A stretch of DNA of 64,000 nt from Peterkaempfera bronchialis (lineage in GTDB: Bacteria; Actinomycetota; Actinomycetes; Streptomycetales; Streptomycetaceae). Each line of letters begins with the position of its first letter. The stretch's first letter is position 1. A model generated the notes under the pieces. It made no database searches, was not told where the DNA came from, and worked only from the letters and a program-made list of their open reading frames with translations. The DNA lies in assembly GCF_003258605.2 (NCBI RefSeq), contig NZ_CP031264.1, forward strand, positions 4,216,001 to 4,280,000, written 5' to 3'. A program made the position numbers and the translations under genes. Positions 13,937 to 33,534 of the stretch are shown one piece after another.

Positions 13937-14129
13937 GCCGGGGGCGTGCCGTGGCCGGGGGGTGACGGGTGGGGCAACGGGGGCTCAACCGGGTTGGGCG
14001 GGATGGGGTTTCGGCAGGGAAAGTGCTCGGCCTGTCTTCCGTGGTGGGGTCCGCGTCCCTACAGTCTTGACTGTCATGGGCACTACAAGTCGCCATGACG
14101 CTCATCGTCCGACACCCCTGGGGACAGCC

Positions 14130-15413
14130 ATGCCCACAGTCGGCAGAACCTCCGGCCGCCGACCATTCGCCTACGCGGCCGGACTCCTGGTCACCTCACT
14201 TGCCCTCCTCCTCTCGCTGCCCGGCGCCGCCACCGCGCAATCCGCCGCGGGCCGGGGAACTCCGCCGCCGATCACCCACCCCGATGCCGACCACGCCGGA
14301 TCGGGCCTGCAACGTCAGGGCGGAAGCGGCGTACTCGCGCAGCCCTCCGTCGCCGCAGCGGCCGCCGGCACCCTGGCCGGGCTGGATGTGAGCAGCTACC
14401 AGGGCGTTGTGGACTGGGCGGCGGTCAGAAGCAACGGCGCCGCCTTCGCCTACGTCAAGGCCACCGAGGGGACCACCTACACCAGCCCCTCCTACAGCGG
14501 GCAGTACACGGGCTCGTACAACGCCGGGCTGATCCGCGGCGCCTACCACTTCGCCCTGCCGGACCGCTCCAACGGCACCGCCCAGGCCGACTGGTTCGTG
14601 GGCCACGGCGGCGGCTGGTCCGCCGACGGCAGGACGCTGCCGCCCGCCCTGGACATCGAGTACAACCCCTACGGCGCCACCTGCTACGGCCTCGGCCAGA
14701 GCGCGATGGTCTCCTGGATACGCGCCTTCAGCGACGAGGTGCGGGCCAAGACCGGTCGCTACCCGATGATCTACACCACCACCGACTGGTGGACCACCTG
14801 CACGGGCAACAACGGCAGCTTCGGCGCGACCAACCCGCTCTGGATCGCCCGCTATGCCGGCAGCCCGGGCACCCTGCCCGCCGGTTGGTCGGCGCAGACC
14901 ATCTGGCAGTACGCCGACTCCGGGGTCTTCCCCGGCGACCAGGACCGCTTCAACGGCTCCCTCGCCGACCTCCAGGCGCTCGCCCTCGGCAACGGCGGCA
15001 CACCGCCGCCGAGCGCCGGGTGGCCCACCGTGCAGCAGGGGCAGAGCGGCCGGCAGGTGACCACCGTGCAGTACCTGCTCAATGCGCATGGTGCGTCGCT
15101 GGCGGTGGACGGTGTCTTCGGCTCGGGTACCGGCAGTGCGGTGCGTTCCTTCCAGTCCTCGCACGGTCTGGCGGCCGATGGCGTCGTCGGCCCCGCGACC
15201 TGGCAGGCACTGCTGGTCACCGTGCAGCAGGGCAGCACCGGCCCTGCGGTCTCCGCCGTGCAGGCGGAACTCAATGCGCATGGTGCGTCGGTGGCGGTGG
15301 ACGGTGTCTTCGGCTCGGGTACCGGCAGTGCGGTGCGTTCCTTCCAGTCCTCGCACGGTCTGGCGGTCGACGGCGTCGTCGGCCCCGCGACCTGGCAGGC
15401 ACTGGTCTCCTAG
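14130..15413 (+). CDS. Secreted GH25 muramidase with two peptidoglycan-binding repeats
   Basis: This lysozyme of 427 residues cleaves MurNAc-GlcNAc bonds of peptidoglycan outside the cell. A Sec signal peptide (residues 1-36, cleavage near GAATA-QS) is followed by a linker, a GH25 domain (about 83-290) with catalytic-type acids D86 in GLDVSSYQG and D175/E177 in ALDIEYNP, and two PG_binding_1 modules (about 295-427). ATG 14130 is chosen for its GGGGACA site and signal peptide; an in-frame ATG at 14076, 10 bases after TACAGT, is possible. The two C-terminal modules are almost identical in DNA. It forms an operon with the M15 peptidase 28 bp downstream. Confidence 0.92.
   Translation: MPTVGRTSGRRPFAYAAGLLVTSLALLLSLPGAATAQSAAGRGTPPPITHPDADHAGSGLQRQGGSGVLAQPSVAAAAAGTLAGLDVSSYQGVVDWAAVRSNGAAFAYVKATEGTTYTSPSYSGQYTGSYNAGLIRGAYHFALPDRSNGTAQADWFVGHGGGWSADGRTLPPALDIEYNPYGATCYGLGQSAMVSWIRAFSDEVRAKTGRYPMIYTTTDWWTTCTGNNGSFGATNPLWIARYAGSPGTLPAGWSAQTIWQYADSGVFPGDQDRFNGSLADLQALALGNGGTPPPSAGWPTVQQGQSGRQVTTVQYLLNAHGASLAVDGVFGSGTGSAVRSFQSSHGLAADGVVGPATWQALLVTVQQGSTGPAVSAVQAELNAHGASVAVDGVFGSGTGSAVRSFQSSHGLAVDGVVGPATWQALVS
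15079..15404 (+). repeat. Near-identical 134-bp direct repeat (peptidoglycan-binding modules)
   Basis: 15079-15212 and 15271-15404 match at all but about four positions, 192 bp apart and in frame. The near identity, including third positions, points to recent duplication or gene conversion. Such repeats can drive loss or gain of a module by recombination. Confidence 0.95.
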
Positions 15414-17505: not shown

Positions 17506-17533
17506 ATTGTATCGGGATGGCAAAGGCGGGTCA
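17506..17533 (-). promoter_or_regulatory. Housekeeping-type promoter for the membrane protein gene
   Basis: On the minus strand, TGACCC (17533-17528) and TACAAT (17511-17506) are 16 bp apart. The -35 element overlaps the SARP stop codon. Confidence 0.55.
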
Positions 17534-19411
17534 GGGTTGTTCGCGGGCGAAGAGGTGGGTGAGGCGGGGGAGTTCGTAGAGGACGGCGTGGGCGGTGACC
17601 TCGCTGGAGGGGGAGGCGACGACGCATGCCTCGATCAGGGACTCCAGGGCCTGGCGGGTGCGGTGCAGGCCGAGGCCGAGGGCGGCGGTGGCCTCTTCGA
17701 GGGTGAAGAGCGGGGCGGGGAGTGAGCCGAGGATGCGCAGGATGTCGCGGGCGGGCTCGGGGAGGTCGCGCCAACATCGGGCCAGGCGGGGGCGGACGGC
17801 GGTGTCCCCGACGGAGAGTTCGTCGAGGGCGGTGAGCGGGTCGGCGAGCCGGGCGGCGTACTCGTCCAGCGGCAGGTGGCGCAGGACGGCGAGCTTGGTC
17901 GCGGCGACCCGTACGGCGAGCGGCAGCAGCCCGGCGGCGGAGACGATCCGTTCGGCGGCGGGCCGGTCCGCCGTGACCCGGCCGAACCCGATGATGCGGC
18001 CGAGCAGTTCGAGGGCTTCGGCGGGGGTGTACGGGCCGACCTCGACGCGGTGGGCCGACTCCAGCCCGGCCAGTCCGGTGCGGGCGGTGACCAGGACCTG
18101 GCCCGGGCCGGAGGCGGGCAGCAGCGGCCGTACGCTGGCCTCGTCCGGCGCGTCGTCCAGGAGCAGCAGCACCCGGCGCCCGGCCAGCCGCCCCCGCCAC
18201 TCGGCGGCGGCTTCGGCGGTCTCGGCGGTCTCGGCGGGGTCGTCGCCGAGCGGCGGCGCGGGCAGTCCGGCGGCGCGGTGGAGTTCGGCGAGTACCGCGC
18301 CGGTCGGCCGGGGGGAGCCGTCCGGGGTGCGCATCCGGACCAGCAGCCGGCCGTCCGGGAAGGCGTCCCGCAGCCGGTGCGCCACATGCAGCGCCAACGA
18401 GCTCTTGCCCGCGCCCACCGGGCCGGTCAGCGCCACCGGCTGCCCGCTGTCGCGGCCGAGCACCTTGAGCAGCCGGTGGACGTGCTCCTTGCGGCCGGTG
18501 AAGTCCGCCAGGTCGCGGGGGAGCAGGGGGCCCGCAGCGCCGGAGGGGCGGCGGCGGGCCGGTGCGGCGGCCGAGGGCGGGCCGGGCGGGTCGGTGAGCA
18601 GGGCGCGGTACCGGGCCTCCAGGGTGGGGCTCGGCGGCAGGCCCAGTTCCCGGGCCAGCAGTCTGCGGTACTCGTCGTAGACGGCGAACGCCTCGCTCTG
18701 CCGCCCGCAGCGGTGCAGCGCGGTCATCTGGGAGACCCGCAGCCGCTCCCGGAACGGGTGCTCACGGGTCAGCTCGCCGATCGTCTCGGCGACGGCGCCC
18801 GGGTCGCCCGCCTGGCCGGAGCCGCCCGCATGACCAGGCCCGCCCGCATGACCGGGGCCGTCAGGCCCGCGCGGGTCGAGCTCCGCCTCGGCCCAGTCCT
18901 CGTACACGGCCACCCGGAGCAGGGCCAGCCGCTCGGCCTCGGCCCGGATCGCCTCCGGTCCGGCCAGGTCGGCGAGGACCGGCCCGCGCCACAGGGCCAG
19001 CGCCTCGCGCAGCAGCCGGGCGGCGGCGGCGCCCTGGGCGGCCTGCCGCCCGGCCCGGGACAGCTGGTCGAAGCGGAGTGCGTCGAGTTCGCCGGGGCCG
19101 ACCCGCAGCAGGTAGCCGCCGTGCCCGTGGACCAGCCGGTCGCCGTGCCCGGCGGTGGAGAGCAGCTTGCGCAGCGCGCAGATGTACACCTGGAGGTTCT
19201 TCCGGGCGGTGCGCGGCGGACTGCCCTCCCAGAGGGCGTCGGCCAGCAGCTCCAGCGGGACGGTGCTGTTGGCGCGGCAGAGCAGCAGGCCCAGCACGGT
19301 GCGCTGCTTGTGCGGGCCGAGCGGCAGCGGTCGGCCGTCCAGGGCGGCGGTGAGCGGGCCCAGGATCCCGAAGTGGAGCCGGCCGGGCCGTTGCGGCTGG
19401 TCGTGTCCCAA
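17531..19411 (-). CDS. AfsR-like SARP transcriptional regulator with NB-ARC ATPase
   Basis: This 626-residue regulator has an OmpR-type winged helix (about residues 12-105; FGILGPLTAALDG, HKQRTVLGLLLCRA), a bacterial transcriptional activation domain (about 110-270) and an NB-ARC module with P-loop GPVGAGKS (about 330-337) and Walker B LLLLDDA. Unlike AfsR it lacks the TPR tail. SARPs activate antibiotic clusters by binding heptameric repeats near the -35 region. The TTG start follows GGGAGGAG. It faces away from the LuxR gene across a 400-bp gap and lies at the left edge of the candidate RiPP cluster, so it is the likely pathway activator, though this is inferred from position. Confidence 0.9.
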   Translation of the reverse strand: MGHDQPQRPGRLHFGILGPLTAALDGRPLPLGPHKQRTVLGLLLCRANSTVPLELLADALWEGSPPRTARKNLQVYICALRKLLSTAGHGDRLVHGHGGYLLRVGPGELDALRFDQLSRAGRQAAQGAAAARLLREALALWRGPVLADLAGPEAIRAEAERLALLRVAVYEDWAEAELDPRGPDGPGHAGGPGHAGGSGQAGDPGAVAETIGELTREHPFRERLRVSQMTALHRCGRQSEAFAVYDEYRRLLARELGLPPSPTLEARYRALLTDPPGPPSAAAPARRRPSGAAGPLLPRDLADFTGRKEHVHRLLKVLGRDSGQPVALTGPVGAGKSSLALHVAHRLRDAFPDGRLLVRMRTPDGSPRPTGAVLAELHRAAGLPAPPLGDDPAETAETAEAAAEWRGRLAGRRVLLLLDDAPDEASVRPLLPASGPGQVLVTARTGLAGLESAHRVEVGPYTPAEALELLGRIIGFGRVTADRPAAERIVSAAGLLPLAVRVAATKLAVLRHLPLDEYAARLADPLTALDELSVGDTAVRPRLARCWRDLPEPARDILRILGSLPAPLFTLEEATAALGLGLHRTRQALESLIEACVVASPSSEVTAHAVLYELPRLTHLFAREQP

Positions 19412-20986: not shown

Positions 20987-22315
20987 TCAGCGCCCCGCCT
21001 CGCCCACGGGGGTGCCCGCCGCCGCCGGGTCCTGGGCGGACCCCGCCGCGCCCTCCGGTTCCGCCGCCGTCCCCGGTTTGGTCTGCGGCTGGGCCTCGGA
21101 CGGCTGCGGCCGGACCGTGAGCAGCCCCCGGGTACGGAGCAGCGGCCCGGCCGAGACCAGGGTGATGACCAGGGCCAGGCCGCCCAGCAGCAGCCAGGTC
21201 CAGGAGACGCCGAGTGCCTGGAGCGCGGCGCCGGCCAGGACCGGGCCGGTCGCCGCCAACCCGGCCGTCACCATGCCGGACGCGGTGCTCACCCGCCCGA
21301 TCAGCTCCCGGGGGGCCAGGGTGAGCACCGCCCGGCCCACCACGATCCCGGCAGGCGGCGAGAGCAGCACCAGCACCACCAGCACCGGGCCCAGCACCCA
21401 CGGGCTGGACGTGGTGGCGAAGAGCGTCAGACCCGCCGCCCACACCGTGCCGACCAGCAGGAACAGCGGCCCCGGATCGAGCCGCCGGACGATCCACGGC
21501 GCCGCCGCCGAACCCAGCACCCCGCCCACCCCGGCGCAGGCCATCACCAGCCCGATACCGGACGGGCTGGTGCCGCCCAACCGCAGCGCCAGCACAAACG
21601 CCACCTCGGCGGAGGCCGTCACCAGGTTGAGCAGTCCGGCAAAGGCCAGCGCCCGCAGCAGCATCGGCTGCCGCCCCAGCCAGCGCAGCCCCGCGACCGG
21701 GCTGCGGTCCGCCGTGCCCGAGGCCGGAGCCGCCTCCGGCCGGGCGGTGATCCGCGCCACCAGCACCGCCGAGACCGCGTACGAGGCCGAGTCCACGACA
21801 AACGGCAGCACCCGGTCCACGGTGAAGAGCCAGCCGCCCACGAACGGCCCGATCAGCGACGCCGTCGCCGCAGCGGCCTGGCTGCGCCCCAGCGCCTCGG
21901 GCAGATGCTCCTCGGGCACCACGTCCCGGACGGCGATGGTGCTCGCCGGGGAGAAGAGCGCGGTGGCCACGCCCTCCACGGCGGCGACGATCAGCAGCTG
22001 CGGGTAGCCGAGCACGCCGATGGCGGCGGCGACCGGGATGGAGCCCACGCCGACCGCCCGCACCACATCGGTGGCGAACATCACCCGCCGCCGGTCCCAG
22101 CCGTCCACCAGGTGGCCGGCCGGCAGCCGGAAGATCAGCCGGGCGGCCATGGCGCAGGTGGCCACCGCCCCGGCCTCCGCCGGGCTGCCGCCCAGCGACA
22201 GGACCAGCAGCGGATAGGCGATGTACGAGACATAGGAGCCGAGGGTGGACAGCGTCTCGCTGGTCCAGTACCGCCGGAAGTCCGCGTTGCCCCGCAGCGC
22301 GCCGGATCTCGCCAT
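20987..22315 (-). CDS. MFS exporter
   Basis: This 442-residue transporter has about twelve hydrophobic segments. LVDGWDRRRVMFATD is the loop 2-3 motif of the EntS-like/MFS_3 family, whose members export siderophores and macrolides. A hydrophilic C-terminal tail follows the last helix. GGAGG lies six bases before the ATG. It follows the radical SAM gene by 42 bp on the same strand and likely belongs to the precursor-rSAM-exporter operon, exporting the mature product or giving self-protection. Confidence 0.88.
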   Translation of the reverse strand: MARSGALRGNADFRRYWTSETLSTLGSYVSYIAYPLLVLSLGGSPAEAGAVATCAMAARLIFRLPAGHLVDGWDRRRVMFATDVVRAVGVGSIPVAAAIGVLGYPQLLIVAAVEGVATALFSPASTIAVRDVVPEEHLPEALGRSQAAAATASLIGPFVGGWLFTVDRVLPFVVDSASYAVSAVLVARITARPEAAPASGTADRSPVAGLRWLGRQPMLLRALAFAGLLNLVTASAEVAFVLALRLGGTSPSGIGLVMACAGVGGVLGSAAAPWIVRRLDPGPLFLLVGTVWAAGLTLFATTSSPWVLGPVLVVLVLLSPPAGIVVGRAVLTLAPRELIGRVSTASGMVTAGLAATGPVLAGAALQALGVSWTWLLLGGLALVITLVSAGPLLRTRGLLTVRPQPSEAQPQTKPGTAAEPEGAAGSAQDPAAAGTPVGEAGR

Positions 22316-22357: not shown

Positions 22358-23548
22358 TCAGAGGCGTCCGGCCGCGTTCAGTCGGTCCAGCAGCGCCGCG
22401 TCCACCTGGTCCTGGAAGGCGGTGAGCGCGGCGGCCTCCTCGCTCTGCCGGTACAGGTCGCCGCAGGAGACCCAGCGGCCCTCGGCCTGCTCGTCCGGCA
22501 GATAGCCGTCGTCGAGCGTGCCGACCTGCCACTCCGGCCGCCCGGCGGTGTCCCAGCAGCTGGAGAGGGTGCCGTCGGCGCTGATCACGGCGCCGTACCG
22601 GCCGTCCCGGAAGGAGCAGGACTGGCACGGCGTGTGGGCGCTCGGCCGGGGCACGCTGAAGCCCCGGTCCAGGGCGGCGGCGTACCAGCGGGTGAAGTCG
22701 GCGGCCAGGGTGCCGTTGTGCAGCAGGTCGTTGCGGTAGCCCACGCCCACGTCGCCGACCATCGCGAAGTAGAGGGAGCAGCGGGTCGGGTCCAGCCGCT
22801 CGGCCAGCCGGTCGACCAACTCGTCCATGCCGGGCCGGCTGCGGTGCGAGACATTGACCCGCAACTGCCAGCGGAGCGTGGTGGCCTCGGTGGCGCGGGC
22901 CAGGTTGGCGGTGATCCGGTCGAAGGTGCCGCCGCCGGAGCGCCGGACCCTGATCCGGTCGTGCTCCTCCCGGTCGCCGTCGAAGGTCACCTGGACCGAG
23001 CCGAGCCCGGCGGCGTTCAGCTCCTTGGCGATCAGCGGGGTGAGCAGGGTGGCGTTGGAGGTCATGGCGGCCCCCGCCAGGCCCAGGTCGGCGGCCCTGG
23101 CCAGCAGCTCCCGGGCGCCGCGCGGGTTCAGCAGCGGCTCGCCGCCGAAGAGCAGCAGCGAGAGGCGGTCAAGGTCGGCGTCGGCCATCCGGCGGCGGGT
23201 GAAGTCCAGCACCGCGCCGATGGTCTCGGAGGTCAGCCGGGCGTGCCTGATCCTCGGCGGGCGGCTGCCCCCGGCCGGGTCCTGCCCGGTGTTCTGGAAG
23301 CAGTAGTCGCAGCCGAGGTTGCAGTCGGTGCTGGTCAGCACGGTCAGGGCGTAGACGCGGTAGGGCGGCGCCGTGTACAGGCCCGCCTTGCGCAGATAGC
23401 GCTCGGCGGAGGGCCGCGGTACGCCCTCCGGTGTGACCTGCTCGGGGCGGAGCAGCGCGCAGCCGCCGCCGCCGAGGAACCACCATCCCCGGGCGGAGCG
23501 GATCAGCCGCGCGCCGGTCTCCGAGACGGCGGGCAGGGTGCTGTGCAT
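22358..23548 (-). CDS. Radical SAM/SPASM peptide-modifying enzyme
   Basis: This 396-residue enzyme has an N-terminal extension of about 65 residues, a radical SAM core with C76-x3-C80-x2-C83 (TDCNLGCDYCFQ) for the SAM-binding 4Fe-4S cluster, LLLFGGEPLLN as the GGE motif, and a SPASM-type C-terminus with clustered cysteines (TPCQSCSF, LSSCWD, VSCGD) for auxiliary clusters. This architecture is that of RiPP maturases making C-S, C-C or C-O links. GGGAGGAAGC sits directly before the ATG. It lies 73 bp downstream of the small peptide gene, which ends in a Trp-Cys-containing segment, and is the natural enzyme for that peptide. Confidence 0.9.
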   Translation of the reverse strand: MHSTLPAVSETGARLIRSARGWWFLGGGGCALLRPEQVTPEGVPRPSAERYLRKAGLYTAPPYRVYALTVLTSTDCNLGCDYCFQNTGQDPAGGSRPPRIRHARLTSETIGAVLDFTRRRMADADLDRLSLLLFGGEPLLNPRGARELLARAADLGLAGAAMTSNATLLTPLIAKELNAAGLGSVQVTFDGDREEHDRIRVRRSGGGTFDRITANLARATEATTLRWQLRVNVSHRSRPGMDELVDRLAERLDPTRCSLYFAMVGDVGVGYRNDLLHNGTLAADFTRWYAAALDRGFSVPRPSAHTPCQSCSFRDGRYGAVISADGTLSSCWDTAGRPEWQVGTLDDGYLPDEQAEGRWVSCGDLYRQSEEAAALTAFQDQVDAALLDRLNAAGRL

Positions 23549-23586
23549 GCTTCCTCCCAGGAGCGGGCGCGGCGGTTGACCGGGCC

Positions 23587-23614
23587 GCCGGGCCGACCCG
23601 GGGGTCGGCCCGGC
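23587..23614 (-). terminator. Hairpin between precursor peptide and radical SAM gene
   Basis: Perfect 12-bp inverted repeat (23587-23598 / 23603-23614) with a 4-base loop, 7 bases after the peptide stop codon. In RiPP operons such a hairpin often lets most transcripts end after the precursor, so peptide exceeds enzyme. Confidence 0.75.
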
Positions 23615-23621
23615 GGGTGGA

Positions 23622-23774
23622 TCAGTTGACCTTCTCCTGGTGGACGCCGCACCAGCCGGCCACGTCGGAGATGCCCTGCTCGTCGTCGACGTCGGCGGTG
23701 TGCGCGACGACCTCGGGAGCGTCCTCGCTGCCGGTCTCGATCTCTTCGGGGGTCGGCTCGGTGTTCTCGGCCAT
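23622..23774 (-). CDS. Candidate RiPP precursor peptide
   Basis: This 50-residue peptide has an acidic leader-like N-terminal two thirds rich in E, D, T and P, followed by the C-terminal segment ISDVAGWCGVHQEKVN (residues 35-50) with the only Trp (W41) and Cys (C42). It starts at ATG 23774 with AGGAG seven bases upstream and ends with TGA at 23622. Small size, acidic leader, Gly and Cys-Trp core, a strong ribosome site, a hairpin after the stop and a SPASM radical SAM gene next in line all fit a precursor. CGVH recalls the CGVY end of mycofactocin precursors, but the tail continues and no mycofactocin genes are present. I know no described family with this core. There is no direct proof that it is modified. 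Confidence 0.8.
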   Translation of the reverse strand: MAENTEPTPEEIETGSEDAPEVVAHTADVDDEQGISDVAGWCGVHQEKVN

Positions 23775-24172
23775 GGCGGACTCCTGTTCTGGGAGTGGCA
23801 GATGCTGGGAGTGGCGGACGGAGACGGGCTGTCCGCCCCGGACCGGGCGCCGACGGGGTACGGCCGACCGCTCGGACGGAGGCGGGCCGACGGTCGTCCG
23901 CCGGCCCTCCAGAAGCTAGGCGGCCCGGGTTCGGCAGCGGTTGGACGCCGGTATGCGGGCGGTGAACGCGCAGGCGGCGACGGGTGCACCGGGTCGGCCG
24001 CCGCCCCCCGCCGCCGCTCGGCCGACCCCCGGCAACCCCGCTGAGCAGCGGCCATACCGTCCCCGAACCGGCACCCAACCGGCAGCCAACCGCGCCGCGT
24101 CACCGTGGTCCCCGTACGGCGGCGGCCCGGCGGCCCGGAGCCGCGCCGACCAGCCGGAGGGAGGGTGTGCCG
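23775..24172. promoter_or_regulatory. Divergent promoter region at the centre of the RiPP-like cluster
   Basis: This 398-bp gap lies between the precursor (minus) and the second radical SAM gene (plus). On the minus strand TAGCTT (23919-23914) is a fair -10 for the precursor operon, giving a leader of about 130 bases. On the plus strand TAGGCG (23917-23922) overlaps it. No further small ORF with a ribosome site was found. Both arms are probably controlled from here. Confidence 0.45.
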
Positions 24173-25276
24173 ATGCGGCTGGCCGACCTGCTCGCGCTGC
24201 GCCCGGTGCCCGGCGCCGGCCTGCTCCTCACCCTGACCCGGCGCTGCCCGCTGCGCTGTGCGCACTGCTCGACCGCCTCCACCATGGCGGCGGAGCAGGT
24301 GGACGGGGCCGCGCTGCTGCGGTTCGTCCGCTCCTTCACCGCCGCCGACCGGCCCGAGGTGGTGCTGCTGACCGGCGGCGAGCCGCTGCTGCGGCCGGAG
24401 CTGGCCGCCGACCTCGCCGCCGCCGCCCGGACGGCCGGGACCCGCAGCGCCCTGCTCAGCGGCCTCTTCTTCGCCCGGGAGGACCGCATCCCGGCCCGGA
24501 TCCTGCGTGCGGTCACCGCCGTCGACCACTTCTCGGCCAGCCTGGACGCCTTCCATGAGCGGGAGGTGCCCAGGGCGGCGGCCTTCCGCGCGGTGCACCA
24601 GGTGCTGGACGCGGGCGTACCGGCCAGCTTCCACCTCACCGGGACGGGCGCCGACGACCCGTACCTGGCGGACGCCACCGCCGCCGTCCGCCGCGAGTTC
24701 GGCGACCGGGCGCCGATGCTGGTCAACGAGGTGCGCGCGGTGGGCCGGGCCGCAGGCTGGGCCGCGACCGCCCGTACGGGGGCGGCCGACCCGGGCGCGG
24801 TGCAGCCCTGCGCCATGGCCGCCTGGCCGGTGGTCGCCTTCGACGGCGCCGTCGTCGCCTGCTGCAACCAGGACGTGGTGGACCGCCGCCCCGCCCCCGC
24901 CCATCTGCTGCTGGGCCGGATCGCCGACGACCCTTGGCCGGTGGTCCGCGCCCGCGCCGCCGGCTCACCGCTGCTGCGGATGGTCCGGGCCGTCGGGCCC
25001 GACCACCTGTACGCCCGCTACGGCGGCGACCCGGCACCCAACGCCGCCGAGGACTGCTGCACGGGCTGCCGCAGGCTCTCCGAGCGGCCCGCCGTCGCGG
25101 ACGCCGCCCGCCGGGCCGGGGCCGGACCGGTCGGCGAGCTGCTGGACCGCGAGGCCGCCCGACTCCAGTACCAGGCCGGGCCGGTGGCGCTGGCCCGCCG
25201 CTGGGGCTGCGCCGGGTACGCCGACCTGGTCGCGCCGGGGCACCCACTGCCCGAGACCGCCGGGGCGACGCGGTGA
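24173..25276 (+). CDS. Second radical SAM enzyme of the cluster
   Basis: This 367-residue enzyme has C25-x3-C29-x2-C32 (RRCPLRCAHCS) close to the N-terminus, VVLLTGGEPLLRPEL, and a C-terminal region with extra cysteines (QPCAMAAWPV, VVACCNQDV, AEDCCTGCRRL) that could hold one or more auxiliary clusters as in SPASM/twitch enzymes. ATG 24173 lies eight bases after GGAGGGAGG; an in-frame GTG six bases earlier is too close. The stop overlaps the next gene's GTG. It is not a close relative of the first radical SAM enzyme, so the two probably catalyse different steps or act on different peptides. Confidence 0.87.
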   Translation: MRLADLLALRPVPGAGLLLTLTRRCPLRCAHCSTASTMAAEQVDGAALLRFVRSFTAADRPEVVLLTGGEPLLRPELAADLAAAARTAGTRSALLSGLFFAREDRIPARILRAVTAVDHFSASLDAFHEREVPRAAAFRAVHQVLDAGVPASFHLTGTGADDPYLADATAAVRREFGDRAPMLVNEVRAVGRAAGWAATARTGAADPGAVQPCAMAAWPVVAFDGAVVACCNQDVVDRRPAPAHLLLGRIADDPWPVVRARAAGSPLLRMVRAVGPDHLYARYGGDPAPNAAEDCCTGCRRLSERPAVADAARRAGAGPVGELLDREAARLQYQAGPVALARRWGCAGYADLVAPGHPLPETAGATR

Positions 25277-25989
25277 CCGCTCCCGCCCCCGCCGCCGCAT
25301 CCGGCGCGGCGCGGCGGCTGGCGGTCAAGCTGGAACCGGCCTCCGCCGCGCTGCACGCCGCGCTCTCCGCGCTCTGGCGGCTGCCCGACCCGGCCGACCG
25401 CTACCGGGCCTATCTGCGGACCATGCACACGGTGATCCGGGCCTCCGTACCGCTGATGGAGACCGCCGCCCGGCGGTGCGCCGACCTGGGCCCGGCCGAC
25501 CCGGTCGCCGGGCCGCTCGGCCGCTACCTCACCGCACACATCGAGGAGGAACGCCACCACGACGCCTGGCTGCTGGCCGACCTCGCCCTCGCCGGCGGGG
25601 ACCCCGCCGAGCCGCTGCGGCAGCTGCCGCCGCCGGAGGCCGCCCGGCTGGTCGGCGCGCAGTTCTACTGGGTGCTGCACCACCACCCGGTCTGCCTGCT
25701 GGGCTACATCGCCGTCCTGGAGGGCCACGCCCCCGCACCCTGGCTGGCCGACCGGCTGGCGCGGACCACCGGCCTGCCCGACGCGGCCTTCCGCACGGTA
25801 CGGGAGCACGCGGTGCTGGACGCCGGCCACGGCGCCGACCTGGACGCGCTGCTGGACCGGCTGCCGCTGACCCCGGAGCAGGAGAGCTGGGTCGCGGTCA
25901 GCGCGCTGCACACCGTCGCCGCCGCCGTGGAACTGCTCCGGCGCCCGGACCCGACCGTCCCCCACGCGCCGCCAGGAGGAGCCCCATGA
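25273..25989 (+). CDS. Haem-oxygenase-like diiron (iron-containing redox) enzyme
   Basis: The 238-residue, largely helical protein has the HDO-type pattern HIEEERHHDAW (E92/E93, H95/H96) and later conserved His/Asp helices (REHAVLDAGHGADLD). Proteins of this fold (PqqC/TenA-like, haem_oxygenase_2) use a diiron or cofactorless site for oxidations such as N-oxygenation, decarboxylation, desaturation or C-C cleavage. The GTG start and the stop overlap both neighbours by 4 bp, so expression is tightly coupled to the radical SAM enzyme and the acidic peptide. An oxidative tailoring role in peptide maturation is inferred from this setting. The exact metal ligands need a structural alignment. Confidence 0.78.
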   Translation: MTAPAPAAASGAARRLAVKLEPASAALHAALSALWRLPDPADRYRAYLRTMHTVIRASVPLMETAARRCADLGPADPVAGPLGRYLTAHIEEERHHDAWLLADLALAGGDPAEPLRQLPPPEAARLVGAQFYWVLHHHPVCLLGYIAVLEGHAPAPWLADRLARTTGLPDAAFRTVREHAVLDAGHGADLDALLDRLPLTPEQESWVAVSALHTVAAAVELLRRPDPTVPHAPPGGAP

Positions 25990-26237
25990 CCGACGGCCAC
26001 GACGACCAGGCAGCCGTCATAGACGACATAGACGACATAGACGACGTGGACGACGTACTGGAGGTGCTGGAGGCCGCGGGCATCGTGGTCGACGGCTTCA
26101 CCGAGGAGCAGCGGCAGGTCTTCCGCTCGCTCTCCGCCGAGGAGTTGGCGCTGCTGCTGGAGATCAAGGGACGGCTTGACGCGGTCGAGCCGGAGGTGCA
26201 GGCGCACGGCGTGGTGGCGGGCGGCGCCCTGTTCTGA
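25986..26237 (+). CDS. Acidic 83-residue peptide, possible second precursor or carrier
   Basis: This is a small protein with a strongly acidic N-terminus made of IDDIDDIDDVDD (residues 12-23, encoded by 9-bp DNA repeats), a predicted helical middle (FTEEQRQVFRSLSAEELALL, then LEIKGRLDAVEPEVQAHG) and a hydrophobic end VVAGGALF. AGGAGGAG precedes the ATG, which overlaps the stop of the diiron enzyme gene. The leader-like helix followed by a short small-residue tail ending in Phe fits a RiPP precursor whose core is the last 8-12 residues. Alternatively it could be a binding or scaffold protein. I do not recognise the family with certainty. Confidence 0.7.
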   Translation: MTDGHDDQAAVIDDIDDIDDVDDVLEVLEAAGIVVDGFTEEQRQVFRSLSAEELALLLEIKGRLDAVEPEVQAHGVVAGGALF

Positions 26238-26303
26238 ACGGCCCAGCTCCGAACGGACCTGTTCGTGAACGGCCGCCCGTCCGCCGAGAGGGAGGACTCC
26301 ACG

Positions 26304-29300
26304 ATGCACTGCTCCTCGTGCCGGACGCCGCTGGTCGCGGGCGCCCGGTTCTGCTCCGGCTGCGGGACGCCCTGCGCCCCGGCCGCTCCGGCCGACCCGG
26401 CCACCGAGGAGCGCAAGGTGGTCACCGTCGTCTTCTGCGACCTGGTGGGCTCCACCGCGATCTCCGGCCGGCTCGACCCCGAGGCACTGCGCGCCGTCAC
26501 CCTGCGCTACTTCGAGGTGATGAGACGTCAGATCGAGGCGCACGGCGGCACGGTGGAGAAGTTCATCGGCGACGCCGTGATGGCGGTCTTCGGCGTCCCG
26601 GTGATGCACGAGGACGACGCCCGGCGGGCGCTGGCCGCCGCCCTGGACATGCTCACCGCCCTGGACCGCCTCAACACGGAACTCGCCGCCGCGCCCGGCG
26701 TCCGGCTGGACGTCAGGATCGGGGTCAACACCGGTGAGGTGGTGGCCGGTTCCGATGCCTCCGCCCGGCAGGCGCTGGTCTCCGGCGAGGTGGTCAATGT
26801 CGCCGCCCGGCTGGAGCAGAACGCCGCCGCCGGGCAGATCCTGATCGGCCCGGACACCCTGCGGGCCGCCGGCGCCGCCGCCGTCGCCGAGGACGCCGGA
26901 CCGCTGCGGCTCAAGGGCAAGGCGGACCCGGTCCGCGCCCACCGGCTGCTGGCCGTCCGCAACGACGACCCGGAGCTGCTGCGCCGCTTCGACATCCCGT
27001 TCGTCGGCCGCGAGCAGGAGCTGGCGCAGCTGCACCTGGTCCTGGAGAAGACCACCGGGACGCTCGGCTGCCACCTGGCGACCCTGTACGGCGAGGCCGG
27101 CATCGGCAAGACCCGCCTGGTCCGCGAATGGCTCGACCGGCTCGACCGGACCGGTACCGCCGTGGCCCACGGCACCGGCCGCTGCCGCCCGTACGGGGAC
27201 GGCGGCACACTCAGCCCGCTCGCCGACGCACTCCGCCACCTGCTGGAGGCCGCCCCTGAGCACCCCGCCGCGCTTCAGCCGGACGCCGACCCCGGCGAAC
27301 TCGCCGACCAGGCCGAGGCGTTGGCCCTGCTCCGCAGCGGCCTGCTGCTCGACGGCACCCCCAACCCGTCGGTGGAGGACACCTGCGCGGCGGCGGCCTG
27401 CCTGCTGGGCGGCCTCGCCCGGCGGCGGCCCCTGCTGCTGGTACTGGACGACTGCCACTGGGCCGACGCCCTGCTGCTGGGCGTCCTGGACCGGCTCTGC
27501 GAGGACCTGGACCGGTCACCGGTACTGCTGGTCTGCACCGCCCGCCCCGAACTGCTGGACCGCCACCCCGGCTGGGGCAGCGGACGGCTCAAGGCGGTCT
27601 CGCTGATGCTGCCCGGCCTCTCCGCCGAGGAGTCCGCCCGGCTGGCTGCCGGGCTGGAGGAGGTCGGCGCCCACCTGGCCGACCCGGAGTCGGCCCGGGT
27701 GCTGGAACGCGCCGAGGGCAACCCGCTGCACCTGGAGCAGCTGCTGGCGATGCTGGCCGACGGCGGCCCACCGGAGGAACTGCCGCCCACCGTGCACGCC
27801 CTGCTGGGGTCGCGGATCGACGCCCTCGGCCCGGCCGAGCGCACCGTACTCGACCTCGCCGCCGTGGTGGGCCGGGAGTTCGACCTCGACCGGCTGGCGG
27901 CCCTGGCCCGCTCCGGCCCCGAGGGGCGGCCCGGCGGCTCCCTGCCGCCGGACGGCACCGAGGGAGACACCGTGCGCGCCGCCCTGCGGCGGCTCATCCG
28001 CAGGCGGCTGGTCGAACCGGCCCGCCGCGCGCCCGGCGGCGGCCCGGCCTTCCGGTTCAGCAGCGGCCTGGTCCATGAGGTCGCCTACCAGGGCATGGCC
28101 AAGCGGGTACGCGCCGAGCGGCACGAAAGGGCCGCCGCACTGCCCGGCGGCGCCACCGACGGCACGGTGGGCCTCCACCTGGAGCAGGCCCACCGCTACC
28201 GCACCGAACTCGGCCTGCTGGACGCCCGTACCGAACGGCTGCGCCGCCACGCCGCCGACCGGCTGGCCGCCGCCGGAGCCCAGGCACTCGCCCGCGCCGA
28301 CCTCCGCTGGGCCGACGACCTGCTGCGCCGGGCGGTGGCCGTCAGCCGCCCCGGCGAACCATGCTGGGCACCGGCCGCCCGCAGGCTGGCCGAGGCGGCG
28401 TTGGCCCGAGGGCGTACCGAGGAGGGCGCGGCGCTGCTGCGGCAGGTGGTCTCCGCTGCCACCGCCTCCGGCGACCCCGTCAGCGCCGCCCACGCCCGCC
28501 TCACCCTCGCCGCCACCCAACCCGCCGCCGACCCGGAGGTCGCCGACCCGACGGCTGGGCCGGACGTGGAGCCTGCTGTCGCCGGGGCGGCCGCCGCTGG
28601 GCCGGCTGCCGGGTCGGGCGTGGCTGGGCCGGTCGCCGATCCGGTCGCTGAGTTCGGGACTGCCGCTGGACCGGTGGCGGGGCCGGGCGTTGCCGGTTCG
28701 GTGGCCGAAATCGGGGTTGCCGCTGGGCTGGTCGCCGGGCCGGGGGTGGATGCCGAGGCCGGGGTGGTGGGTGGGTCGCCGACGGCCGTTGCGCGGGCTG
28801 TGCTGCCCGTCTTCCAGGCCGCCGGGGACCTGCTGGGGCTGGCCCGGGCCGAGATCCGGATCGCCCAGGACGAGCAGCGCCGGGGCCTGCACACCGAGGC
28901 CGACCGGCGGCTCACCCGGGCTCTGGACCACGCGGTACGGGCCGACGCCGAGCCCGAGCGGGCGCTCGCCCTCGGCGCGGTCGGCGTCTCGCTCTGGCTC
29001 GGACCGGAGCCCGTACCGTCCGCCGTCGCCCGCTGCCGCGCCCTGCTGGCCGAGCACGGCGCCGGCCGCCGCACCGTCGGAGTGACCCTCAACTGCCCGC
29101 TGGCCGTGCTGCTGGCCCTGGACGACCGGCCCGAGGAGGCCCGGGCCTGCCTCGCCGCCGCAGCCCGGCTCGCCCGGGAACTGGGCTACGCCGAGGCGGC
29201 CGTCTTCCTGCCGGTCTTCGCCGCCGCCGTGGAGGTCCCGGCAGGCCGCCCGGAACGGGCCGAGGAACTGCTGCTGGAGGCCGAGCGGGCGGGCCGGGAA

Positions 29301-29741
29301 CTCGGCGGCAGCCTGCCCGCCGCCGTCTCCCGGGAACTGGCCCGGCTGCTGCTGGCCCGAGGCGAGTGGCGGCGCGCGCTGTGCCGGGTCGAACCCGACG
29401 ACCGGGGCCTGCCGCTCTCCGAGGCGGCCGACCGCGACGGCCTGCTCGCCCGGATCGCCGCACTGCGCGGCGACCACGCCGAGGCGGAACGGCTGGCCGA
29501 GCGGGCCTGCGACCGGGCGGGCCGCACCGATTCGCCGGTGGCCCGGGCGGTGGCCGCGCTCGACCGGGCGCACACCCTGCTGCTGACCGGCAGCCCCGCC
29601 CGCGCCGCCGACGCCGCCGCCGAGGCGGGCCTCGGCTTCACGGAGAAGGGGCACCGGCCCGGGGCGCGGTGGGCGGCGCGGCTCTCCGCCCGCGCCGCCG
29701 CCACCGGACCGGACGCGCCGTACGGGGAGGCCGCCCGATGA
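26304..29741 (+). CDS. Nucleotidyl cyclase-STAND ATPase fusion regulator
   Basis: This 1145-residue protein begins with a zinc ribbon (C3, C6, C17, C20). A class III adenylate/guanylate cyclase domain follows (about 38-200) with metal-binding Asp residues in FCDLVGST and KFIGDAVMAVFG. A STAND ATPase module has P-loop GEAGIGKT (about 263-270) and Walker B LLLVLDDCHWAD. The C-terminus is helical and TPR-like. Around 28537-28790 it holds a Val/Ala/Gly/Pro low-complexity insert with VAGPGVAG repeats. No DNA-binding domain is seen. It presumably senses a ligand through the helical repeats and signals by conformational change or cyclic nucleotide. It sits inside the operon, and the stop overlaps the protease ATG. 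ATG 26304 follows GGGAGGA. Confidence 0.87.
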   Translation: MHCSSCRTPLVAGARFCSGCGTPCAPAAPADPATEERKVVTVVFCDLVGSTAISGRLDPEALRAVTLRYFEVMRRQIEAHGGTVEKFIGDAVMAVFGVPVMHEDDARRALAAALDMLTALDRLNTELAAAPGVRLDVRIGVNTGEVVAGSDASARQALVSGEVVNVAARLEQNAAAGQILIGPDTLRAAGAAAVAEDAGPLRLKGKADPVRAHRLLAVRNDDPELLRRFDIPFVGREQELAQLHLVLEKTTGTLGCHLATLYGEAGIGKTRLVREWLDRLDRTGTAVAHGTGRCRPYGDGGTLSPLADALRHLLEAAPEHPAALQPDADPGELADQAEALALLRSGLLLDGTPNPSVEDTCAAAACLLGGLARRRPLLLVLDDCHWADALLLGVLDRLCEDLDRSPVLLVCTARPELLDRHPGWGSGRLKAVSLMLPGLSAEESARLAAGLEEVGAHLADPESARVLERAEGNPLHLEQLLAMLADGGPPEELPPTVHALLGSRIDALGPAERTVLDLAAVVGREFDLDRLAALARSGPEGRPGGSLPPDGTEGDTVRAALRRLIRRRLVEPARRAPGGGPAFRFSSGLVHEVAYQGMAKRVRAERHERAAALPGGATDGTVGLHLEQAHRYRTELGLLDARTERLRRHAADRLAAAGAQALARADLRWADDLLRRAVAVSRPGEPCWAPAARRLAEAALARGRTEEGAALLRQVVSAATASGDPVSAAHARLTLAATQPAADPEVADPTAGPDVEPAVAGAAAAGPAAGSGVAGPVADPVAEFGTAAGPVAGPGVAGSVAEIGVAAGLVAGPGVDAEAGVVGGSPTAVARAVLPVFQAAGDLLGLARAEIRIAQDEQRRGLHTEADRRLTRALDHAVRADAEPERALALGAVGVSLWLGPEPVPSAVARCRALLAEHGAGRRTVGVTLNCPLAVLLALDDRPEEARACLAAAARLARELGYAEAAVFLPVFAAAVEVPAGRPERAEELLLEAERAGRELGGSLPAAVSRELARLLLARGEWRRALCRVEPDDRGLPLSEAADRDGLLARIAALRGDHAEAERLAERACDRAGRTDSPVARAVAALDRAHTLLLTGSPARAADAAAEAGLGFTEKGHRPGARWAARLSARAAATGPDAPYGEAAR

Positions 29742-30577
29742 CCACCCAGCCCGCTCCCCGCCCCCCGCTCACCTGGAGCCTGCGCGGCCGGGGCCCGCAG
29801 GACATCCCCGTGGACGCCGACGGCGAGCGGATCACCGCCGGCTGGTCCTGGGGCGGCTCCACCGGCCATGGCGTACGGGTCTGCGTGGTGGACAGCGGGG
29901 TGGAACGCGACCACCCGCTGGTCGGCCCGGTGCAGGGCTCCTACGCCGTGGTGCAGGGCGACGACGGGCTCACCGTCGAGGAGACCTCCACCGGGGACAC
30001 CTGCGGACACGGCACCGCCTGCGCGGGCATCATCCGCCGCACCGCGCCCGACTGCGAGCTGTACAGCGTCCGGGTCCTCGGCGAGCGGTTCGCCGGCACC
30101 GGCGACGCCCTGCTCACCGGGCTCCGCTGGGCCGTCCGGCAGCGCTTCGACGTGGTGAACATGAGCCTGTCCACCACCCGCCCGCACTTCGCCGAGGCGC
30201 TGCGGGTGCTCGCCGACGACGCCTACTTCGGCCGCACCGCGATCGTGGCCTCCGCGCACAACACCCAGGTGGAGAGCTACCCCTGGCGGTTCTCCTCGGT
30301 GATCTCGGTCGGCAGCCACCAGGAGGACGACCCCGACCTGTACCTGTACAACCCCCGGCCACCGGTGGAGTTCTTCGCCCCCGGCCAGAACGTCACCGTG
30401 CCCTGGCTGGGCGGCGCGACCATCCGCACCACCGGCAACAGCTTCGCCACCCCGTATGTCGCCGGGCTCTGCGCCCGCATCCTGGCCAAGCACCCGGCGA
30501 TGACGACCTTCCAGCTGAAGAACGCGCTCTACCTATCCGCGGCCAATGTCCGGACCGGCAGCAGAGGTGCCCAATGA
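29738..30577 (+). CDS. Cytoplasmic subtilisin-like (S8) protease, likely leader peptidase
   Basis: This 279-residue serine protease has the full catalytic set: D52 in VVDSGVERDHP, H91 in CGHGTACAG, oxyanion N175 in SAHNTQ, and S235 in GNSFATPYVAG. It has neither signal peptide nor propeptide, so it should act inside the cell and be active as made. In RiPP clusters such S8 enzymes remove leaders (as LanP does). It overlaps the upstream cyclase gene (ATGA) and the downstream GAF gene by 4 bp. Its natural substrates would be the two small peptides of this cluster; that is inference. Confidence 0.9.
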   Translation: MTTQPAPRPPLTWSLRGRGPQDIPVDADGERITAGWSWGGSTGHGVRVCVVDSGVERDHPLVGPVQGSYAVVQGDDGLTVEETSTGDTCGHGTACAGIIRRTAPDCELYSVRVLGERFAGTGDALLTGLRWAVRQRFDVVNMSLSTTRPHFAEALRVLADDAYFGRTAIVASAHNTQVESYPWRFSSVISVGSHQEDDPDLYLYNPRPPVEFFAPGQNVTVPWLGGATIRTTGNSFATPYVAGLCARILAKHPAMTTFQLKNALYLSAANVRTGSRGAQ

Positions 30578-31143
30578 CCGAGAGCAGAGACCCCGTCGCG
30601 CGGGAACTCCTCCAGTCGATCGTCGGGGTGGCACAGGCCATCTTCGGCGCTCAGGCCAGCTCCATCTTCCTGCTCGACGAGCGGGCCGACGAGCTGGTCT
30701 TCGAGGCCGTCTCCGGCCGGGGCGAGGAGTTCCTGGTCGGCATGCGCTTCCCGGCCGACCGGGGGATCGCCGGCTGGGTGGCGACCTCCGGCGAGCCGAT
30801 GGTGGTGGACGACCTCGCGCACGACCCGTCCTTCGCCCGCGACCTCGCCGAGTCCACCCGCTATGTCCCCGACGCGCTGATGGCCGCGCCGCTCATCCAC
30901 GGCACCCGCATCCTCGGGGTGCTGGAGGTGCTGGACCCGGTGCAGCAGTCCCGGTCCAGCCTGGGCGAACTCGACCTGCTGGCGCTCTTCGCCCGGCAGG
31001 CCGCCGCCGCGCTCCGCATCGTGCTGGAACGCCGCGCCGCCGACCTGCCGCCCGTCGACCGGCCGGACCTGGACGCCGGGCAGCGGGCCACCGGGCTGCG
31101 GCTGGTCGAGGAGCTGAAGGAGCTGCTGCGCCATGCCGGCTGA
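30574..31143 (+). CDS. GAF-domain sensory protein
   Basis: This 189-residue protein consists of one GAF domain (about residues 8-155). Hallmarks include SSIFLLDERADELVFEA, the central GIAGWVATSGEPMVV, and a C-terminal strand GVLEVL. GAF domains bind cyclic nucleotides, haem, flavin or other small ligands. No output domain is attached; about 35 C-terminal residues form an amphipathic helix that could contact a partner. The gene is coupled to the protease gene and overlaps the P450 start by 11 bp. With a cyclase in the same operon, cyclic nucleotide binding is an attractive but untested idea. Confidence 0.85.
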   Translation: MTESRDPVARELLQSIVGVAQAIFGAQASSIFLLDERADELVFEAVSGRGEEFLVGMRFPADRGIAGWVATSGEPMVVDDLAHDPSFARDLAESTRYVPDALMAAPLIHGTRILGVLEVLDPVQQSRSSLGELDLLALFARQAAAALRIVLERRAADLPPVDRPDLDAGQRATGLRLVEELKELLRHAG

Positions 31144-32347
31144 CGACCGCCGCCCCGCCCCCTCACCGCTCGGCCGGGCGTTCGTCCAGCACCCCCACCC
31201 GGTCCTCGCCGAGCTGCGGGAGGGCTGCCCGGTGGCCAGGGTGGACGACCCCCGGGGTCGGCCGGTCTGGGTCGTCACCCGCGCCGAGGACGTCCGGGCC
31301 GGGCTGCTCGACCCCCGGCTGTCGCTCCAGCACCCGCCGCCCGCGCCCGGCGCCCGCCCGTACCGCGCGCTGGAGCTGAGCCTGGTCGACTACGACCCGC
31401 CGCACCACACCCGCATCCGCAGACTGGCCGCACCCGCCTTCGCCCCGCAGCGGGTGGAGCGCTACCGGCAGGCCGCCGAGACCACCGCCGCCGCGCTGCT
31501 GGCGCCGCTGCCCGCCGACCGGCCCGCCGACCTGATGAGCGCCTTCGCCCGCCCCTTCTCCTTCCGCGTCCTCTGCGAGGCGTTCGCGACCCCCGAGGCG
31601 GCCCGCGCCGACCTCCTCGGCTGGATGACCGCCCTCTTCGACCGCCGAGGCCGCACCCCCGCCGACATCCAGGCCGCCACCGACGGCATCGAACGGCACG
31701 TCAGGGATGAGATCGCGGCCCGCCGCCGCGCCCCCGGCAGCGACCTGCTCTCCGCCATCGCCACCGCCTGGCAGCCGGACGGCGACGTCACCGAGGACGA
31801 ACTGGTCTCGCTCTGCGCCATGGTGCTGCTCGCCGGATTCGACTCCACCGCGCAGATGATCGGCCTCTGCGTACGGGCCCTGCTCACCCACCCTGACCTG
31901 TACGCCCGGCTCCGCGCCGACCCCGCTCTGGTCCCCGCCGCCGTGGACGAGCTGCTGCGCTGGGACACCCCCGCGCCGTTCAGCACCCGCCGCCGGGCCC
32001 TGGCCGACATCACCCTCGGCGACACCGTCATCCCGGCCGGCAGCGGCGTACTGCTCGCCATGGCCGCCGCCAACCGCGACCCCCGCCACCACCCCGACCC
32101 GGACACCCTGGACCTCGACCGGCCGGGCGCCGCCCGCCACCTGGCCTTCGGACTCGGGCCGCACTACTGCCTCGGCTCCGCCCTGGCCCGGCTGGAACTC
32201 TGCACCGCCCTCACCGCGCTGCTGCGCCACCGCCCCGCCGCCCGGCTCGCCGTCCCCGCCGCAGAGCTCTCCTGGCGCGGCGGCTGCCAGCACCGCGTGC
32301 TGGCCGCACTGCCCGTCCTGCTCGGTACAGGGGTGGATCCCCGGTGA
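31133..32347 (+). CDS. Cytochrome P450 of the RiPP-like cluster
   Basis: This 404-residue bacterial class I P450 has the I-helix LLAGFDSTA (residues 232-240; T239 in the oxygen-activation position), ExxR as E273-L-L-R276, and the haem loop AFGLGPHYCLGSA with axial C346. It needs ferredoxin and a reductase, which are not encoded here. P450s in peptide clusters hydroxylate residues or cross-link aromatic side chains (biarylitides, cittilins), and the Trp or His of the precursor core are conceivable targets. The start overlaps the GAF gene and the stop overlaps the next GTG. Confidence 0.9.
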   Translation: MPADDRRPAPSPLGRAFVQHPHPVLAELREGCPVARVDDPRGRPVWVVTRAEDVRAGLLDPRLSLQHPPPAPGARPYRALELSLVDYDPPHHTRIRRLAAPAFAPQRVERYRQAAETTAAALLAPLPADRPADLMSAFARPFSFRVLCEAFATPEAARADLLGWMTALFDRRGRTPADIQAATDGIERHVRDEIAARRRAPGSDLLSAIATAWQPDGDVTEDELVSLCAMVLLAGFDSTAQMIGLCVRALLTHPDLYARLRADPALVPAAVDELLRWDTPAPFSTRRRALADITLGDTVIPAGSGVLLAMAAANRDPRHHPDPDTLDLDRPGAARHLAFGLGPHYCLGSALARLELCTALTALLRHRPAARLAVPAAELSWRGGCQHRVLAALPVLLGTGVDPR

Positions 32348-33534
32348 ACGTGCTGCTCTGCCCGCTGAGCGACCCCGGATTCCGCTACCCCGCCCTCGCC
32401 GTCGGCCTGGAACTGCGGCGGCGCGGCCACACCGTACGGGTGCTCGCCCCCGGCGGCGCCGCCGGACCCCTGCCGCCCGGCCTGGACCCGGCCGCGACCG
32501 CCGGACCCGAGGACGCGACGGCCTTCCGGGTCGGCAACTGGTTCCGGTACGGCGCCGCCCAGTACCGCGCCGTACGCGAAGCCGCCCGGCGGACCCGCGC
32601 CGACGCCCTGGTCACCTCCGTGCTCTGCCACGGCGCCCTGCTGGCCGCCGAGACCCTGGACCTGCCGGTCGCCGTCCTCGGCCTGGCCGCCCACCTCTGG
32701 CCGTACGCGGCCGGCGGCCAGGGCGAGCCCGAACGGCCCGCGCTCCGCGCCTGGCGGCTGCACGAGACCCTCGGCCACTACGCCCGCGCCCGGGAGGACG
32801 CCGGACTCCCGCCCCGCCGCGACCGCGCCCCGGAACGCCCGCTGACCGGCGACGCCCTGCTGCTGCGCGGCCACCCGGCGTTCGAGTACCCCGGCGCGGA
32901 GCTGCCGGAACGCATCCACCGGGTCGGCCCCTGCTGGTGGGAACCGGCCCCCGACCCCGCCGACCTCGCCACCCTCGCGGACCTCGACGCCCGCATCGCC
33001 CGGTGCGGCAAACCCCTGGTCTATGTCCACCATGGGCGCAGCTTCGGCGGCAGCAGCCTCTGGCCCTGGCTGAACGCGGCCTTCACCGGCGGCCCGTACC
33101 AGGCCGTCGTCGAGACCGGCCGCTCCGGCCCGGCCCGACCCGCCCCCGGCGCCGACCTGCTGCCGGTACGCCACCCCTGGATGACCCCCCTGATCACCCG
33201 GGCCACCGCCGTCGTCGCCAGCGGTACCACCGCCCCCGTCCTGGCCGCCCTGCTCACCGCGCGCCCGCTGCTGCTCCACCCCGCCGGCGGCGAACAGCCC
33301 CTGCTCACCGAGGCCTGCCTACGGGCCGGAGTCGCCCACCGCGCCCCGGCCGACCCCGCCGCGGCCCCGACCGCCCTGGACGCGGCCCGCACCGACCCCG
33401 CCCTACGCGCCCGCACCACCGCCGTCGGCGACTGGCTCCGCCGCTCCCCCGGCCCACCCGCCGCCGCCACCCTGATCGAATCCCTCTCCCACCCGACCCC
33501 CGCCGTCAGCCCCGCCGGCACCCTCACCGGGTGA
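32344..33534 (+). CDS. UGT/MGT-like glycosyltransferase (GT-B fold)
   Basis: This 396-residue protein has the two-domain GT-B layout. The N-terminal Rossmann half starts VNVLLCPLSDPGFRYPALAV with the charged helix LELRRRGHTVRVLAP. The C-terminal donor domain contains AVVASGTTAPVLAALLTARP and LLHPAGGEQPLLTEACL, equivalent to the MGT/PSPG donor motif but with the usual HGG replaced by a serine-glycine stretch. It would attach a sugar to the cluster product; the loss of the HGG histidine makes donor choice uncertain. GTG start overlaps the P450 stop. This is the last gene of the operon and is followed by a convergent gene after 55 bp. Confidence 0.8.
   Translation: MNVLLCPLSDPGFRYPALAVGLELRRRGHTVRVLAPGGAAGPLPPGLDPAATAGPEDATAFRVGNWFRYGAAQYRAVREAARRTRADALVTSVLCHGALLAAETLDLPVAVLGLAAHLWPYAAGGQGEPERPALRAWRLHETLGHYARAREDAGLPPRRDRAPERPLTGDALLLRGHPAFEYPGAELPERIHRVGPCWWEPAPDPADLATLADLDARIARCGKPLVYVHHGRSFGGSSLWPWLNAAFTGGPYQAVVETGRSGPARPAPGADLLPVRHPWMTPLITRATAVVASGTTAPVLAALLTARPLLLHPAGGEQPLLTEACLRAGVAHRAPADPAAAPTALDAARTDPALRARTTAVGDWLRRSPGPPAAATLIESLSHPTPAVSPAGTLTG

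Follow-up and report, generated by a model that had tools for sequence, protein, structure and literature searches.

The window, a 64,000-nucleotide stretch of the Peterkaempfera bronchialis genome, contains a short open reading frame that runs on the minus strand from 23774 to 23622 (ATG, 50 codons, TGA). The encoded peptide, MAENTEPTPEEIETGSEDAPEVVAHTADVDDEQGISDVAGWCGVHQEKVN, has one Trp and one Cys. A radical SAM gene, referred to here as the maturase gene, follows on the same strand after a gap of 73 bp (77 nt as folded), and a complete aroma-sacti module (24173-31143) is transcribed divergently from the peptide gene. The features of the locus are listed in Table 1. Elsewhere in the window, the reading frame at 13962-15413 translates into a protein predicted to be lysozyme-like, whose C-terminus has two near-identical peptidoglycan-binding repeats in tandem.

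Table 1. Features of the locus, in window coordinates.
Feature	Position	Strand	Evidence
Precursor peptide, 50 aa	23622..23774	-	peptide homologues at related loci; purifying selection; search with family profile
Ribosome binding site AGGAG	23781..23785	-	sequence reading; 6 nt 5' of precursor ATG
E-V-V-A-H-T, residues 21-26, family motif E-V-x-A-H	23697..23714	-	V 36/36, A 35/36, H 35/36
Core W-C-G-V-H-Q-E, residues 41-47	23634..23654	-	Cys 36/36; tandem homologues
Attenuator-like hairpin in the precursor-maturase spacer, 14-bp stem	23585..23616	-	fold of spacer
Radical SAM maturase, 396 aa, 4 conserved C-terminal Cys	22358..23548	-	PF04055 1.5e-13; NCBIfam below cut-off; alignments
MFS transporter, proposed exporter	20987..22315	-	PF07690 3e-35; same position across Trp clade
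SARP-type (BTAD/NB-ARC) regulator	17531..19411	-	52% identity to L032 BTAD/NB-ARC protein
Second radical SAM protein, aroma-sacti module	24173..25276	+	PF04055 1.5e-12; linkage at many loci
Haem-oxygenase-like iron-containing redox enzyme	25273..25989	+	PF14518 5.7e-11
Aroma-sacti domain peptide, end PEVQAHGVVAGGALF	25986..26237	+	NF045560 74.6 bits, cut-off 30; relatives
Cyclase/AAA ATPase protein, probably regulatory	26304..29741	+	PF00211 and PF13191; conserved neighbour
S8 subtilase, QhpE-like, candidate leader protease	29738..30577	+	PF00082 4.8e-27; NF049966 111 bits, cut-off 165
GAF-domain protein	30574..31143	+	62-70% identity to related-locus GAF proteins; L033 relative = PF01590
Cytochrome P450, heme motif FGLGPHYCLG	31133..32347	+	PF00067 1e-26; tracks core Trp
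MGT-like glycosyltransferase	32344..33534	+	TIGR01426 1.5e-6, below cut-off; relatives at many loci

The peptide gene is under coding-type selection

The reading frame has the composition of a coding frame, with GC fractions of 0.72, 0.40 and 0.96 at codon positions 1, 2 and 3. When a profile was built from the relatives with the window left out, this frame ranked first among the 897 open reading frames of the window (E 3.3e-6); the runner-up had an E of 0.07 and the top reversed decoy an E of 2. Pooled pN/pS was 0.41 over 15 homologous pairs, indicating purifying selection, and dN/dS was 0.10-0.15 in the pairs L031-L144 and L031-L141 (L numbers denote related loci). The frame is very short and has no family match in Pfam, NCBIfam or PHROGs, which would suit a frame open by chance, or a small peptide with a regulatory role that is no precursor. 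We consider this very improbable, as the codon-position GC, the ribosome site and the purifying selection argue against it, and so do tandem-repeat homologues fixed next to the same maturase. A chance frame was rejected on the coding-type selection and the relatives-only profile search, and the frame is confirmed as a genuine gene. The first-pass annotation, made from the sequence alone, had proposed the gene, its ribosome site and the sole Trp and sole Cys, all of which hold.

No second copy of the precursor was found in the genome, and a plasmid search gave no match. The relatives of the precursor have no credible match in NCBIfam, and our literature searches did not find the motifs or the cluster described.

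The precursor family shares two conserved elements

Of the 391 genomes of the order, 33 carry a relative of the maturase (E 1e-90 or better). Close relatives of the maturase are found in Streptomycetaceae, Catenulisporaceae, Micromonosporaceae, Pseudonocardiaceae and Streptosporangiaceae, and nearly all of them are preceded by a matching small peptide. The precursor profile finds a peptide at 44 of 57 loci; at those without a match the maturases are mostly just 42-54% identical to that of the window, and L169 ends just upstream.

Counted over 36 nonredundant first units, the motif E-V-x-A-H has E or D before V in 36/36, V in 36/36, and A and H in 35/36 each. The core Cys, 6-18 residues after this motif, is present in all 36 units, mostly in the context C-x-[V/I/T]-[N/H/Q], and the leader and spacer positions are variable yet acidic. 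Among 60 unique Cys contexts, position Cys+2 is V or I in 46 and one of V/I/T/L/F/A in 56, and position Cys+3 is N, H or Q in 46 and one of N/H/Q/Y/F in 50. An earlier suggestion was that W41, C42, H45 and the last residues might be conserved more than the leader. C42 is indeed invariant; H45 is kept only as a member of the N/H/Q class, W41 is specific to a clade rather than family-wide, and conservation does not extend to the last residues. The region then labelled leader contains E-V-x-A-H, the strongest conservation besides the Cys, which had been overlooked.

The window precursor has one unit (EVVAHT...WCGVHQE), with a motif-to-Cys spacer of 15 residues that is among the longest in the family. 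Some relatives carry 2-5 repeats of the unit within one precursor, and 42 of 47 precursors have as many motifs as Cys. The WCGVHQE core, of which the window has a single-unit member, occurs threefold per precursor in L031, L140-L142 and L144 (L144 is MAENVEPNEETTETPAEETPEVVAHSASNVAWCGVHQETAADEPEVVAHAASNVAWCGVHQESAVDEPEVVAHSEEGEDTPWCGVHQEHNA, three units). The L147 precursor has four units of the type EPEVVAHSGEDTPWCGVNVGTAAT, the L037 precursor is MPENTNPKPVEDEDIEVVAHGEAEEDEAGCIINNSSDIS, and L146 has four separate paralogues, each with a single unit. Homologues, tandem cores, purifying selection and conserved synteny together support the earlier view that the gene encodes the precursor of a radical SAM system. 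As with RiPP precursors in general, it is a short conserved peptide gene with leader and core beside a peptide-modifying enzyme. We conclude that the family is real and apparently an unnamed one of actinobacterial RiPP precursors, and that its peptides are probably converted to a natural product by the neighbouring radical SAM enzyme.

Several other peptides were also seen. L015 (238-1369) and locus L165 are distant relatives with repeated FTGTEVICGVFDKDLANSDDVIAHS units in several adjacent precursors, in which the order of core and motif is seemingly reversed. The L047 precursor (7521-7868) has three cores, CGIQIGA or CGVQIGA, and a weak VLANRS-type motif, not VVAHS. Upstream of distant maturases in L016 (1230-1328) and L017 (1219-1317, both in reverse-complement coordinates of the locus) lies a 32-residue peptide, MNENTITNDVEIEIYVDEATSDQAAPCDVCRW, that ends in C-D-V-C-R-W and is possibly another precursor type.

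The maturase leans towards Cys-thioether chemistry

The radical SAM signature C-x3-C-x2-C is present as C76-C80-C83 in 56 of 57 sequences, the remaining one being gapped, and the Cys residues of the CNLGCDYC type are universal among the aligned maturases. In the same alignment C308, C311, C331 and C362 are conserved or nearly so, and C257 is mostly conserved. The neighbour had been annotated as a SPASM radical SAM gene; its radical SAM identity, strand and downstream position are borne out, but it has four C-terminal Cys and not the seven auxiliary-cluster Cys of a canonical SPASM domain. Judged by this arrangement, it appears closer to a shortened, Twitch-like form.

By profile score, the nearest named families are TIGR04463 (119 bits, cut-off 525), the CefB family NF038107 (96, cut-off 600) and the geopeptide family TIGR04280 (94, cut-off 400). 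Judged by their names, these also act on small Cys-bearing peptides, but their cores are Cys-rich whereas those of the window family have a single Cys. Among solved structures, the closest relative is 5wgg, which we take to be CteB, a thioether-forming SCIFF maturase, and this relationship leans towards Cys-thioether chemistry. With SCIFF and the PapB ranthipeptides the window system shares a radical SAM enzyme with auxiliary-cluster Cys and a Cys-containing core. The PapB pattern is C-x3-[D/E], in contrast to the C-x-[V/I/T]-[N/H/Q] of the family with one Cys per unit; the window core has Q at Cys+4, and its maturase scores 78 bits against NF047865 (cut-off 340).

The system also recalls mycofactocin (MftA/MftC) through C-G-V with an aromatic or amide residue directly after it, as the first-pass annotation had hinted for CGVH. 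However, mycofactocin has its C-G-V-Y at the C-terminus, while the window core is internal, with H for Y and five residues trailing, and the partner genes differ. Membership was rejected on the position of the core and because MftC lies outside the best 25 family matches of the maturase; the resemblance is superficial. It is also conceivable that the radical SAM enzyme forms a bond without the Cys sulfur, for example by a mycofactocin-like reaction on V-[Y/F/H/N] of C-G-V-x or by epimerisation, and that the Cys of the same RiPP precursor serves in binding or later chemistry. C-G-V-[H/N/Q/Y/F] does recur, with C-G-V-Y in the distant member L166, but the Cys is the sole invariant core residue, Gly and Val vary, and the internal core differs from the C-terminal V-Y of mycofactocin, so that we regard this alternative as unlikely. 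A single acceptor for the Cys is not proven, since Cys+3 is not fixed (N/H/Q in 46/60, then Y/F and others).

The spacer between precursor and maturase folds with -46.1 kcal/mol (z -2.7). Stems of 12-19 bp that differ in sequence follow the precursors at at least 12 related loci (L032, L033, L034, L044, L048, L056, L140, L141, L144, L145, L146 and L151). The hairpin would fit an attenuator that keeps the mRNA of the precursor more abundant than that of the maturase.

Linked proteases and the aroma-sacti module

The MFS gene is a partner in the window and its clade, and an S9 prolyl oligopeptidase gene adjoins the maturase gene at most loci. Further conserved partners are the MGT-like glycosyltransferase (often), the SARP regulator and the genes of the aroma-sacti module. 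Prolyl oligopeptidases have precedents in bacterial RiPPs, namely FlaP, MpcP and ProTM32 (PMC12951456). The window cluster has no local copy; a relative with 57% identity is encoded about 2.1 Mb away in the genome. Pro or Ala lies within three residues before the Cys at 29 of 30 loci with the oligopeptidase versus 5 of 9 without (p 0.007, kinship ignored), a loose fit to its presence. A strict Pro at the cut site was rejected (Pro alone, p 1).

The aroma-sacti domain is over the cut-off in 79 of 391 genomes, and by coordinate comparison 23 of the 33 genomes with the maturase have it no more than about 12 kb from the maturase gene, so that we regard aroma-sacti as a separate module in strong linkage. 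The window precursor differs from this StsA-related system (NF045560, NF045559) in lacking the 52-aa aroma-sacti domain and in having its own maturase; it has no match to NF045560, for which the divergent neighbour scores above the cut-off. Nearly all aroma-sacti peptides of the 17 loci listed end in E-V-x-[A/G]-H and a short tail (D-V in one), and the window pair has E-V-x-A-H in common. The simplest reading of the shared motif is a common docking or processing signal. Loci without a nearby S8 gene retain the motif, which is therefore not established as a pure S8 site. At L033 (2621-2833), L035 (2663-3382), L044 (1732-2619) and L045 (3385-3789), proteins with the aroma-sacti domain end in EVEGHDLKLV or alike; the aroma-sacti radical SAM gene is absent there, the cyclase/AAA, S8 and GAF genes are present, and EVxGH persists.

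Partner enzymes follow the core residues

A P450 gene is linked at 13 of 14 loci with a Trp core and at 0 of 24 loci without. An artefact of flank length was checked by extending several loci, not every non-Trp locus: L036 and L056 gained a P450, and the extended non-Trp loci G182, G426, G283, G020, G030 and G241 had none beyond GAF. The exception is L045 with its near relative L149. The tree places the Trp cores in a single main clade and, apart from it, at L051 and L151, which corresponds to about three independent Trp-P450 pairings.

In the window, the aroma-sacti operon has the P450 gene in its terminal part, where it and the glycosyltransferase gene come after S8 and GAF, and in the L034 genome the P450 lies within an unlinked aroma-sacti module. 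Both enzymes might thus serve the aroma-sacti peptide, leaving the radical SAM enzyme alone to modify the window precursor. This is a possibility that we take seriously and yet find doubtful: the distribution of the P450 over Trp and other loci argues against it, as do the operons beside non-Trp precursors, which have no P450 where flanks were extended, and the distance of 2 kb between P450 and maturase in L031 and L140-L144.

A second partner, DUF6895, accompanies C-x-x-N-[N/H/G]-S cores at 17 of 17 loci and other cores at 0 of 21. The Fisher p value for this association adds no independent support, since these loci fall into essentially one clade on the tree. The title of a reference cited in PMC13352647 describes DUF6895 as a lasso-peptide epimerase family.

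Discussion

We consider it fairly probable that the peptide is a RiPP precursor whose pathway comprises a Cys-modifying radical SAM enzyme, a P450 acting on Trp, a protease and MFS export. Pathway enzymes would recognise the leader and E-V-x-A-H, and the adjacent radical SAM enzyme would modify the core at the invariant Cys, whose sulfur would most likely be bonded to a residue at Cys+2 or Cys+3 of C-x-[V/I/T]-[N/H/Q]. The window precursor belongs to the Trp clade, in which the P450 may then act on the core Trp. A protease would free the core near the Cys, presumably the prolyl oligopeptidase in most clusters and, in the window, either the S8 subtilase or an enzyme that is not linked to the cluster, and the MFS pump would export the product.

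This pathway builds on direct observation of the precursor gene and the family it belongs to, of the conserved elements, and of partner genes that are clade-specific. In its favour are homologous precursors with the invariant Cys and EVxAH beside homologous maturases, the repeats of 2-5 units, purifying selection, conserved partner genes, the Trp-P450 pairing and 5wgg as best solved relative. We count against it the variable residue at Cys+3, the small number of C-terminal Cys in the maturase (four), the lack of a local prolyl oligopeptidase and the position of the P450 in the aroma-sacti operon. More speculatively, and with little confidence, the locus may be a composite two-peptide system, in which a pair of unrelated precursors, served by separate radical SAM enzymes, have E-V-x-A-H and a processing set in common and yield a two-component product; a new short thioether from Cys to +3 would be decorated per clade by P450 at Trp, DUF6895 epimerisation or glycosylation.

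The analysis defines an apparently undescribed family of actinobacterial peptide natural products. Its natural multi-core precursors ease testing, as one substrate offers 3-5 near-identical cores, and the clade-specific partners (P450 with Trp, DUF6895 with NNS) make the assignment of enzymes to residues directly testable. The occurrence of E-V-x-A-H in two adjacent systems raises the testable question of whether they have recognition or processing in common.
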